DNA of 64,000 bases from Haloarcula rubra. Its GTDB lineage: Archaea > Halobacteriota > Halobacteria > Halobacteriales > Haloarculaceae. The notes under the pieces were generated by a model that saw only the letters and a list, made by a program, of their open reading frames with translations, was not told the origin of the DNA and searched no databases. Every line of letters starts with the position of its first letter. Positions within the stretch are counted from its first letter, which is position 1. The stretch lies in assembly GCF_019599465.1 (NCBI RefSeq), contig NZ_RKLR01000002.1, positions 496,001 through 560,000 on the forward strand, written 5' to 3'. The position numbers and the translations under genes were made by a program. Shown one piece after another: positions 39,829 to 43,928 of this stretch.

Positions 39829-41139
39829 TCAGTCGCCCTCCTCGTCCCACGCGGCCCACTCCCGGTGCGTGGCGGCGACGGCCCCGACTTCGTCGGCGTC
39901 GAGTCGGCCCCGCTCTGTCACGACGGCGGTCACCGCCGCCGCCGGCGTCACGTCGAAGGTGGGGTTCGCCACCGTCAGGTCGGCGTCGCCGTCGTACACC
40001 TCGGCGGCGTCGCGGGGTTCGAGGTCGTAGTCGGCCGTCGTCGCGACTTTGTCGCTCGACGCGACGACCAGACAGTCGGCGCCCGCCGCGGCCGCCGCCA
40101 GCGCCGCCGTGCGGGTCCCTACCTTGTTGACGACGCGGCCGTCCGGGAGGACTCGGTCGGCACCGACGAGGACGGCGTCGGCGTCCCAGTCGGCGAGTTC
40201 GAACGCGAAGGCGGCGTCGGTGGTGAGCGTCACGGCCGTCCCGTCGGCCAGCGACTCGGCGACGCCGACGCCCTCGCCGCCGGGCCGGGACTCGGCGACC
40301 AGCACCGCGTCGGGGTCGGCCGCCCGAATCGCCGCCGTGACGGTACCCGACCGCGAGAGCGTCGCCACACGGCCCGGGAGCGTCTCGGCGGCCCGTTCGG
40401 CCGCTCTACGGTCGGCGTCGACGGCCCGTTCGATGGCCCGCCGGGCCGCCGTCTCGACGGCCGCGGGCGTCCGGTCGTCGCTGGCTGTCGACATCACGCG
40501 GTCGACGCGGGTGGCGAGGACGGCCATCGACGGCCGGGTGTCCCGGAGTCGTCGCGCGAGCGACGCCAGCCCCGTCCAGTCGTCGCCGTCGCGGTCGGCC
40601 GATTCGAGTTCGTCCGCCCGTCCCTCGGCGGCCAGTGCCGCCTCGTCGCGCAGGGTCTCGAGTGCCCGCAGCGAGAGCCACGCCGACCCGTGGGTCCGGT
40701 CGTCCCGGACCGTCGCCACGCGGGGCCGCACCCGGTCGTAGGAGGTCCAGAGGCGCGGGACCGTCTCGCGGCGGAGTATCTCCGGCGGGTGGACCCACGC
40801 CGTCGCCGTCGTCTCCTCGTTCGTCTCGACCGCCCGCGAGTCGCAGTCGAACAGGAACGGGTGGACGAGCCATCGGATGTCGCGGTCGGCGTCCTCGACG
40901 GGGAACGGGTCGCCGCCGGTGACGAGTGTCGACGCTCCGGCGAGGCCGGTCTCCTCGGCTATCTCGGCCCACGCCGCCGTCTCGGGGTCGCGTCGCTCGC
41001 GCTCCCGTTCGTCGTCGACGACGTGTCCGGCGACGCCGCCCCACCGACCCCGGTACGACCCGACGGCGTCGCTCCGCCGGCGGAGCAACACCTCGCCGTC
41101 GTTGCGGAGGAACGCGGTGACGACTGCCCGTTCGTCCAT
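39829..41139 (-). CDS. Nudix-like domain fused to eIF2B-alpha-like domain
   Basis: A 436-residue two-domain protein. Residues 1-140 are Nudix-like, with AEIAEETGL at the box end, but the box has an insertion and Ala in place of the usual Arg. The C-terminal 270 residues are of the eIF2B/MtnA/ribose-1,5-bisphosphate isomerase family: ATLSRSGTVTAA and LVGADRVLPDGRVVNKVGT. The site that is Cys in the sugar isomerases (T-H-C-N) is SRSG here, as in true eIF2B subunits, so isomerase activity is doubtful. A nucleotide or sugar-phosphate sensor is possible. Convergent with the MBL gene. Confidence 0.78.
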   Translation of the reverse strand: MDERAVVTAFLRNDGEVLLRRRSDAVGSYRGRWGGVAGHVVDDERERERRDPETAAWAEIAEETGLAGASTLVTGGDPFPVEDADRDIRWLVHPFLFDCDSRAVETNEETTATAWVHPPEILRRETVPRLWTSYDRVRPRVATVRDDRTHGSAWLSLRALETLRDEAALAAEGRADELESADRDGDDWTGLASLARRLRDTRPSMAVLATRVDRVMSTASDDRTPAAVETAARRAIERAVDADRRAAERAAETLPGRVATLSRSGTVTAAIRAADPDAVLVAESRPGGEGVGVAESLADGTAVTLTTDAAFAFELADWDADAVLVGADRVLPDGRVVNKVGTRTAALAAAAAGADCLVVASSDKVATTADYDLEPRDAAEVYDGDADLTVANPTFDVTPAAAVTAVVTERGRLDADEVGAVAATHREWAAWDEEGD

Positions 41140-41256
41140 GCGTTCGCGTAGGCTCCCGGTCCCAATCAAACCGGAGGCCGCAGTCGAGTCGGCGACCCCG
41201 GCTCCCGCCCGAAGTGACGGCGAGACTATATGATTCTGTGGTCCCTCTGTGTCGAC

Positions 41257-42003
41257 GTGGCAGACACGACACCGCACTTCGACCTGCTGGACGGCGAGTT
41301 CGGCCGCCGTCCCCGCACTGCCGTGTTCCTCTACCCCGCGGACGACGCCGTCTACGACGAGTGGGTCGACGGCGGCCCGGTGGCGGCGGCCGTCGTCGAC
41401 GGCCTCGACCAGTTCGTCGAGTTCGGGGCGCTGGGCGGGTACGCGGCGTTCACGCTGGCGCCCTCGGAACCGTTCGTGGCCGACGACGGCGGGGCCGACT
41501 ACGACGACACGACGAAGGCGGCCTTCGTCGACGCCTTCGAGACGTACACGGAGCGCCACCCGGAACTGTACGGCGCTCGGGGGCTGCACTACGGCGTCGC
41601 CGGGGGGTTCGACGGCGGCGGCGGGTTCAGCGCCGACGAACTCGACGAACTCGCCTTCACCACGAACTGCCGGATGGTCGTGGGGACGGCCTCCGAGGAC
41701 GCCGCCCGCGTCGAGGCGTTCACCAAGCAGGAACTCGGACACGCCCTCGTCGGCTACCGCCACCTCGCGAAGACGAGCGTGCTGGTCGAGCGCGGGAGCC
41801 ACATGCACGAACACGACACGGGCGTGGTCTCCCCCTCCGGCGAGGTGTCGCCGATGGCGGTGACCTACCACGACAGCCACGCCGCCCACGGGGCCTGTGC
41901 CAACGGCCACCCGCACTTCCGGGGGTACGACCCGAACTACACCGACTGCACGAAGCTAGCGGTCGAGCGCACGGCCGAGGCGGTATTCGGGGGTGAGGGA
42001 TGA
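41257..42003 (+). CDS. Metzincin-like protein with altered zinc motif
   Basis: A 248-residue protein of unknown function. It contains QELGHALVGYRH, which is the metzincin signature HEXXHXXGXXH except that the first His is Gln, and a later SPMAVTY that could be the Met-turn. Further His/Cys-rich sequence (HMHEHD, HDSHAAHGACANGHPH) follows. There is no signal peptide. GTG at 41257 is preferred because a TATA ACTATATGATT (41225-41235) covers the upstream ATG at 41230. It overlaps the next gene by 4 nt (ATGA). Confidence 0.6.
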   Translation: MADTTPHFDLLDGEFGRRPRTAVFLYPADDAVYDEWVDGGPVAAAVVDGLDQFVEFGALGGYAAFTLAPSEPFVADDGGADYDDTTKAAFVDAFETYTERHPELYGARGLHYGVAGGFDGGGGFSADELDELAFTTNCRMVVGTASEDAARVEAFTKQELGHALVGYRHLAKTSVLVERGSHMHEHDTGVVSPSGEVSPMAVTYHDSHAAHGACANGHPHFRGYDPNYTDCTKLAVERTAEAVFGGEG

Positions 42004-42764
42004 GCGACGACTCGACGGCACGGGTCACCGCGACCCGACGCAGTGTCCTCAGGGCCGGTGGCGTCCTCGGCGGTGGATCGCTCCTCGGCGTCGCCGGAAC
42101 GGCGTCTGCGGGGACCACGACGCGGGTGGTCGACGTCGCGGTCGAGTTCGACGTGGACACCCCACCAGACACCACCCTCCGGGCGTTGCACGTCGACGGG
42201 GCGCCCCCCTACCGCGTCGCGACCGACGAAGGGCGACTCGTCACCGACCCGTACGGTACCCTGACGGCCGCCGACCGGAGGCGACTCGACGACGCGGCCT
42301 TCGTCGTGCGGGACGCCGCCGGCGTGACCGACACGGGCGACCGCCTCTCGACGGCGCTGGCCGCTCGGGACGAGACCGTCCGGTGGCTTCCGAGGCGACT
42401 CGCGTCCGACTACCGTCCCGTCGCCGCGGTCCGACTGGCCGCGCCGCTGGCCGTTCGCCGCCCGTCGGTGTCCCGCGTCGGCGAGGCGGCCCGTGTCGGT
42501 CTCGGGAGCGACCGCCACCGCGTCTCGCCGGGCGAGACGCTGACGCTCGAACTGTCGACACGAACGGCGACCGTGGAGACACGGACGCTCGGTGCGGGTG
42601 ACGGGGACGCGGGACCTCCCGACGGTGCGGACGACCCGGCGTCGCTCGCCGACGTCCCGCCGGCCGTCGAGACCGACGTCGGAGAACTACGGACCGCCGT
42701 GACGCCGCTCGTTCGCGTGCGGCACCTCGGCGACCTGATCGTCGAACACGGCTCGCGCGCCTGA
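42000..42764 (+). CDS. Tat-exported uncharacterised protein
   Basis: A 254-residue protein with a Tat signal TRRSVLRAGG, hydrophobic core and AxA-like cleavage region GTASAGT. No lipobox Cys. The mature part is acidic and beta-rich with no domain I recognise; a long variable loop (DGDAGPPDGADDPAS) lies near the end. It is coupled to the metzincin-like gene by an ATGA overlap, so the two probably work together. Confidence 0.68.
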   Translation: MSDDSTARVTATRRSVLRAGGVLGGGSLLGVAGTASAGTTTRVVDVAVEFDVDTPPDTTLRALHVDGAPPYRVATDEGRLVTDPYGTLTAADRRRLDDAAFVVRDAAGVTDTGDRLSTALAARDETVRWLPRRLASDYRPVAAVRLAAPLAVRRPSVSRVGEAARVGLGSDRHRVSPGETLTLELSTRTATVETRTLGAGDGDAGPPDGADDPASLADVPPAVETDVGELRTAVTPLVRVRHLGDLIVEHGSRA

Positions 42765-42769
42765 CCGAC

Positions 42770-43873
42770 TTACAGCGCGTCGAGCAACCGGTCCACGTCG
42801 CCCTCGTCGTTGAACGCGTGGACCGACGCCCGGACGGCCTCGGGGTGGGGGAGCGACCGGACGACGATACCGTCCGCGGCGAGTCGCTCGACGGTCGCCT
42901 CCGGGTCCTCGACGGCGAACGTGACGAGGCCGGACTCGTACCGCTCGGGGCTCAGCAGGCGGTCGTCGAGGCCGTCTTTCAGGCGATCGGTCAGGCGCTC
43001 GACCCGCGTCTCGACGGTGTCGAGGCCCACCGACTCCATCGTCTCGATGGCCGCCGCGAGCGCGACGTAGGGTGCCGGCGAGGTGGTCCCGACCTCGAAC
43101 CGTCTGGCGCCGGTGTGGTAGGCGTACTCGTCGGCGTTCATCTCCTCGACGCTCCGGTAGCCGATGCGGGTCTGTCGGAGTCGGTCGTGCGCGCCCGGGT
43201 CGACGTACAGCACGCCGGCGCCCCAGATGCCCAGCAGCCACTTGTGGCCCGCGGCCGTCACGAAGTCCGCGCCCCACTCTGTCACGTCGACGGGGTGCTG
43301 GCCGACCGACTGGACGGCGTCGACGAGTACCTGCGCGCCGGCGTCGTGGGCGATGTCGACCACCTCGCCGACCGGCAACCGGGTGCCGTGGGTCCACGTC
43401 AGCGAACTGAGTACGACGAGTCGCGCGTCCGCGACGGCGTCTCTCACCGCGTCTAGGTCGAGACGGCCCCGCTCCGTCTCGAGCACCCGGACCTCGACGT
43501 CGTGCGTGTCGGCGAGTCGGTCCCACGGCAGGGTCCCGGCGGGGTGTTCGAGGTCGGTGCGGACGACCACGTCGCCGGGTTGCCAGTCGATGGCACTCGC
43601 GACGAGGTTGACGCCGTCGGCGGTACTCCGGGTGAACGCCACGTCGTCGGGCCGAGCGCCGATGTGGTCGGCCGCCACCTCCCGTGCGGCGGCGATGGCG
43701 TCCCACGCGACGGCGTACGGGCCCTCGCCGGCGGGCGCTTCGAAGGCGTGTCGTTCCAGAAAGTCGGTCGCCGCGTCGACGACGGGCCGGGGACTGGGGC
43801 CGCTCGCACCCGTGTTGAAGTAGGTACACCGGTCCAGTGCGGGTATCGCCGCACGAAGCTCCGCAGGGTCCAT
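42770..43873 (-). CDS. Class V aminotransferase (cysteine desulfurase-like)
   Basis: A 367-residue PLP enzyme. YFNTGASGPSPRPV near the start, VLVDAVQSVGQHPVDV with the PLP-ring Asp, and the Lys of TAAGHKWLLGIWG mark the class V fold. No catalytic Cys loop of SufS/IscS is evident, so it could be an isopenicillin-epimerase-like or other lyase rather than a desulfurase. Convergent with the Tat protein gene, divergent from znuA. Confidence 0.82.
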   Translation of the reverse strand: MDPAELRAAIPALDRCTYFNTGASGPSPRPVVDAATDFLERHAFEAPAGEGPYAVAWDAIAAAREVAADHIGARPDDVAFTRSTADGVNLVASAIDWQPGDVVVRTDLEHPAGTLPWDRLADTHDVEVRVLETERGRLDLDAVRDAVADARLVVLSSLTWTHGTRLPVGEVVDIAHDAGAQVLVDAVQSVGQHPVDVTEWGADFVTAAGHKWLLGIWGAGVLYVDPGAHDRLRQTRIGYRSVEEMNADEYAYHTGARRFEVGTTSPAPYVALAAAIETMESVGLDTVETRVERLTDRLKDGLDDRLLSPERYESGLVTFAVEDPEATVERLAADGIVVRSLPHPEAVRASVHAFNDEGDVDRLLDAL

Positions 43874-43928
43874 AGCGGTGTCAGGAGGGCCGGCGCCTTG
43901 AGCGCTGTGCCGTGGTTGTCTCAGAGAA

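Follow-up and report, generated by a model that had tools for sequence, protein, structure and literature searches.

The first zinc-binding histidine of the HExxH motif is usually treated as irreplaceable. A single metalloproteinase of the QEXXH type has been characterised, VMP3 of Volvox with its motif QEXXHXXGXXH, which is reported to prefer copper (PMC7717551, citing Heitzer and Hallmann 2002). A metzincin that is encoded next to a dedicated partner is presented in PMC8235301, which describes a phage-derived two-gene pair from Listeria where the second gene codes for a TIMP-like, inhibitor-like protein. Partner proteins may also serve export. The tyrosinase MelC2 of Streptomyces hitchhikes out of the cell on MelC1, a helper with a Tat signal which is also required for copper incorporation (PMC2758597), and the E. 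coli complexes HybOC and PaoABC are Tat hitchhikers in which just one of the subunits has a signal peptide (PMC4273604).

The gene pair described here is located on a stretch of 64,000 nucleotides from Haloarcula rubra, the whole of which is referred to as the window. The original prediction for this pair was confirmed in part: its first gene, A, codes for a metzincin-like protein, and a swap to glutamine and the pairing with a Tat partner recur across the group.

The gene pair

41226..41231, + strand: TATA-like box CTATAT, 26 nt before the GTG start (from sequence; kept in L002, a relative with 90% identity)
41257..42003, + strand: gene A, 248-residue signal-less metzincin-like protein (from translation, family profile and Foldseek matches to metzincins)
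42000..42764, + strand: gene B, 254-residue partner with Tat signal (R13-R14) and ASA cleavage motif; ATGA overlap with the stop codon of A

The GTG at 41257 was assigned as start codon of A. It is kept in the 90% relative, where an in-frame ATG further upstream (41230) is replaced by ATC. We infer that the CTATAT box is a haloarchaeal promoter of the leaderless type; a scan for bacterial-type promoters and terminators gave no match. The original prediction had proposed that A is coupled by ATGA to a Tat-exported protein, and indeed the stop codon of A overlaps the ATG of B, which starts with a twin-arginine signal (TRRSVLRAGGVLGG...TASA). The arginine pair is invariant in the B family, which also shares a C-terminal TPxVxxRNxG motif. 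Only the Tat signal of B was matched by Pfam. An AF2 model of B is beta-rich but too weak for interpretation (pLDDT 37.6, pTM 0.36).

Active site signature

41728..41730, + strand: codon 158, CAG (Gln), replaces the first metal-ligand His (His in 97 and Gln in 19 of 120 members)
41731..41733, + strand: codon 159, Glu, position of the catalytic base (kept in 21 of 21 Gln members)
41740..41742, + strand: codon 162, second ligand His (118 of 120 members)
41812..41814, + strand: codon 186, displaced third ligand His in an EHxLG motif (116 of 120 members)
41848..41868, + strand: SPMAVTY, residues 198-204, Met-turn-like (P199 in 115, M200 in 85 and Y204 in 107 of 120 members)
41896..41949, + strand: Cys214 ... 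Cys231, possible disulfide (pair conserved in non-type-I members)

The open reading frame of A (41257-42003) encodes QELGH, and the codon for Gln158 is, as had been pointed out, a single base away from a His codon. It had also been claimed that the motif equals the metzincin signature in all but this glutamine, and here the prediction has to be corrected. HExxHxxGxxH wants a glycine at position 8 and a histidine at position 11, but in QELGHALVGYRH these are found at positions 9 and 12. The histidine at position 12, H169, is shared by L002 and the window protein but by no other member. Being unconserved and one residue too far away, it was ruled out as third ligand.

We assign this role to H186, because it is conserved throughout the family while H169 is not. 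H162 and H186 are both invariant across an alignment of 77 sequences, a conservation beyond chance, and in a nine-member alignment the invariant residues are E159, H162, H186, G189, P199, C214 and C231. H186 sits in a (D/E)HxLG motif, 24 residues past H162, and has been moved off the helix by an insertion which displaces it by about 18 residues relative to metzincin spacing. Of the idea that the metal site has been rebuilt from the His-rich tail, only H186 is left, and this is the usual third ligand throughout the family, HExxH members included; H182 and H184 show no general conservation. The segment SPMAVTY, which had been proposed as Met-turn, follows the zinc helix, and its SPM is conserved at the sequence level. 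As the strict signature HExxHxxGxxH is not found in A (QELGH, with the third His at +24 from H162), we do not file A as a classical metzincin.

Fold and relationship to metzincins

An AF2 model of A was computed from four sequences, a limited alignment depth, and is poor (pLDDT 48.6, pTM 0.53). In this low-confidence model the order of elements is b-a-b-a-b-aB-aC, with QELGH on a helix formed by residues 149-164 which is followed by the C-terminal helix. When the model was compared to the PDB with Foldseek, the top matches were ADAM8, ADAM33, snake-venom metalloproteinases and fragilysin (E 2.6e-3, prob 0.97), with TM-scores of only about 0.3 to 0.4. A sequence search of the PDB with A returned haemagglutinin matches only, which were dismissed as spurious.

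A search that was led by B uncovered additional B-like genes, and these adjoin sister proteins with HELVHLYGAQH, HEAGHAYGASH...TPM or HELLHTFNAEH...SIMYSW. QELGHLYDARH and MEPGHIYGAKH also occur among these sisters. Profile comparison of the A family (A6) with the B-paired HExxHxxGxxH sisters (A10) by hhalign gave a probability of 96.2 (E 2.3e-9), QELGH being aligned with HELVH and H186 with the canonical third histidine, while the controls (eight shuffled profiles, one reversed profile and the B profile) reached at most 0.1. A single A10 sister, L187, passes the Pfam model Reprolysin_5 (27.4, cut-off 27). The Foldseek matches, the hhalign result and this sister together argue that A is metzincin-like by descent. 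The predicted kinship, the glutamine in place of the first ligand and the Met-turn-like SPM are all supported. A metzincin-type fold of A is very probable.

Distribution of the family

Single-sequence searches with A reach few relatives, while a profile search reaches the whole family, which was found in 104 of 392 sampled Halobacteriales genomes, about a quarter. In a sample of the phylum, all 15 genomes with matches belong to Halobacteriales. A is matched by no Pfam or NCBIfam model (for Pfam, none at E<=10), and the literature that was searched contained no paper on the family. Type I is a large and conserved subfamily of about 300-390 residues, and nearly all of its members have their own Tat signal and a canonical helix, AIHETLHTFL. 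A second set, to which the window protein belongs, is more diverse; its proteins have about 210-280 residues, and most of them lack a signal.

PKD and PPC-like domains are typical of secreted proteins. Two signal-less QExxH members (L011:883-2091 and L012:1090-2298) are fused to PKD and PPC-like domains, and a small Tat protein is encoded directly upstream of each of them.

Glutamine at the first ligand position

Besides histidine and glutamine, the first-ligand column of the 120 members contains Met, Ser, Thr and a gap, once each. When shorter matches are counted, there are 21 Gln members. All of them retain Glu159 and His162, and His186 is present in all 19 for which that column is covered. 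With the rest of the site retained, the change is a specific exchange of one ligand and not decay. In a column scan of the 21 Gln members, no other column was found to gain a ligand-type residue in step with the glutamine.

It had been reasoned that close homologues with a normal HExxH would make the glutamine a local mutation. However, the nearest relatives of A, with 90% (L002) and 29% (L003) identity, both have Gln, as do members of other branches, and a local mutation was rejected on these grounds. The window protein and these two relatives form a supported clade, all with Gln. There were at least 7 changes between His and Gln in a careful tree (62 rows, with the Gln/His column removed) and at least 9 in a quick tree (115 rows). 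Glutamine is involved in 7 of about 9 substitutions (p about 0.001 if all single-base missense changes of a His codon are equally likely), a rough argument which points to selection for Gln and not to decay. An association of Gln with the presence of a B partner (Fisher 2e-5) is not claimed, as it is not independent of the tree; an independent-pairs test was uninformative.

Natural His, Gln, Met and Asn-for-Glu variants, together with HExxH sisters, thus occur within one family, and this series makes ligand choice and metal selectivity testable. The Asn-for-Glu members (L103, L105, L108 and L140) have an HNAIH motif, with both histidines kept and the catalytic Glu replaced; in the same four, the Met of the Met-turn is changed to Ala. 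L103 and L105 are still paired with B. A number of A genes (L006, L014/L039, L015/L113, L035/L111, L036) are broken by frameshifts or stop codons, in most cases within the active-site helix or downstream of it, which appears to be rapid decay of accessory cassettes.

Probable export with a Tat partner

A lacks a signal peptide, and its sequence has no other export signal. The arrangement that is characteristic of Tat hitchhikers, a signal-less subunit next to a partner with a Tat signal, was found in 33 pairs of A and B. B is located 3' of A in 19 and 5' in 14 of them and, as both gene orders occur, B cannot be explained as an N-terminus that has split off from A. In contrast, none of the 70 A members with their own Tat signal has an adjacent B. 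The Fisher value for this exclusion (4e-16) overstates independence because of shared ancestry, the pattern being partly clade-structured with about 6 state changes on the tree. Two members with a Tat signal of their own, L053 and L055, sit nested alongside partner-type ones, and the position of a third, L009, among these is unresolved in the tree.

For 21 signal-less members no B was called. Among these, L002 does have B, in a longer reading frame, and this case comes on top of the 33 pairs. Four are of type I, and the others have a different Tat neighbour, lie at a contig edge or are fragments. From the opposite direction, 9 of the 14 extra B-like genes that were tested adjoin an A-like gene, and a clear A-like neighbour is absent for the other 5.

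Pairing in both orders and exclusion with own signals bear out the proposed functional coupling of A and B. The simplest reading, which is likely from these patterns, would be that either A bears a Tat signal or B bears one for A. We consider it likely that A is exported piggyback on B. The original prediction had noted that A has no signal peptide, which is correct, and had called this odd; the Tat signal of B, which would carry A, best explains it. Since relatives have several times exchanged a separate carrier for a fused signal or the reverse, the family offers a natural experiment on piggyback export by the Tat pathway.

Genomic setting and mobility

39829..41139, - strand: Nudix/e2b-like gene, left flank of the insertion site (adjoins the right flank in congeners without A/B)
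42770..43891, - strand: class-V aminotransferase-like gene, right flank of the insertion site (adjoins the left flank in congeners without A/B)

The A-B pair of the window is located between these two genes (39829-43891), which are neighbours with a short gap in 11 congeners. When 32 genomes of the same genus were searched, the window genome included, A was carried only by the window genome and by one other (G030). By this pattern, the A-B cassette is an accessory insertion. No match to A was found in viral contigs, phages or plasmids, and no PADLOC model for anti-phage defence was matched. With its accessory distribution and fast divergence, a role of the pair in competition or surface remodelling would fit.

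A second, distant pair is present in the genome from which the window comes (L183:1535-3195; G000:C36:20034-21694); here a B-like Tat protein is combined with an A-like one that contains MEPGHIYGAKH. Over 2,960 bases, this segment matches a contig from a genome of another family (G372) with 100% identity, and the match continues at the other contig end, as if circular. On this identity we regard it as a recent horizontal transfer, which indicates that cassettes of the A-B kind move.

Alternative explanations

As a whole, we consider it on balance probable that A is an exported, divergent member of the metzincin clan, in which the first His has been replaced by Gln while the rest of the site is kept, and that it leaves the cell as a Tat hitchhiker on B. 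A would fold in the cytoplasm together with the product of B, and the Tat signal of B would then take the pair out of the cell. Exported A is predicted to bind a metal, most likely via the glutamine or via two histidines, and might act as a peptidase or as a peptide-binding protein; its metal may not be zinc. That metal-dependent activity has been retained is slightly more likely than not.

The most serious alternative is a pseudo-enzyme: the Gln members would have an inactive zincin fold that serves to bind peptides or partners, and B would be the adaptor. Repeated loss of the first ligand would fit, as would the two HNAIH sisters which have lost the catalytic Glu yet pair with B, and the Ser and Thr variants; activity thus seems dispensable in some branches. 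However, the replacement is almost exclusively by Gln, and no Gln member has lost Glu159 or His162, nor His186 where covered, which weakens the pseudo-enzyme adaptor that had been suggested. Moreover, VMP3 is reported in PMC7717551 as an active and copper-preferring natural QEXXH metalloproteinase. We regard inactivity as the less probable outcome. More doubtful is a bolder version of the preferred reading, namely that QExxH enzymes have evolved repeatedly in haloarchaea to use a non-zinc metal, probably copper, which would be loaded in the cytoplasm before folded export on a dedicated Tat carrier and metallochaperone. By analogy, a copper or other non-zinc site in A is attractive because MelC2 needs its helper for copper incorporation and VMP3 prefers copper.

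B could instead be mainly a secreted inhibitor, an intermolecular propeptide or an immunity protein for A, which would then leave the cell by other means. Gene pairs of protease and inhibitor are described in PMC8235301, and the weak model of B is beta-rich. Such a role is unlikely, given that every branch with its own Tat signal goes without B, even the HExxH members which would be expected to be more active, and that no other export signal is visible on A. That A stays in the cytoplasm and is merely co-transcribed with B would account for its missing signal; this is quite improbable in view of relatives with their own Tat signals, the conserved Cys pair, the fusions to PKD and PPC domains, and pairing with B in both orders. 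That the glutamine is a local mutation of one strain or an error of annotation, for which the single-base distance of CAG might speak, is refuted by the Gln in both nearest relatives and in 21 members overall, and we assign this practically no probability.

Comparison with known systems

The best structural neighbours of the A model are metzincins of the reprolysin/adamalysin type (Pfam Reprolysin_2/3/5, M12B). Sister proteins paired with B carry the HExxHxxGxxH motif and a Met-turn, and one of them passes Reprolysin_5. A itself keeps the Glu, the second and third His and the SPM of this type, but differs by the Gln for the first His, the displaced third His, the lack of a Gly at canonical spacing and the lack of a Pfam match. 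As in VMP3, the Gln of A falls precisely on the first ligand position while Glu and the second His are retained, which holds for all 21 Gln members. The XXGXXH spacing, canonical in VMP3, is not found in A, where H186 follows H162 by 24 residues, and VMP3 is a eukaryotic protein with its own secretion.

Like MelC2 and MelC1, signal-less A is encoded beside B with its Tat signal; no sequence relationship was found between the two systems, and export and metal loading of A are proposed by analogy. HybOC and PaoABC likewise have the signal on one partner only, as A-B has it on B, but they are redox enzymes, and some relatives of A carry the signal fused to the cargo protein itself. The Listeria pair, as presented in PMC8235301, also combines a metzincin gene with the gene for a small secreted partner. 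That partner is inhibitor-like, whereas B tracks export.
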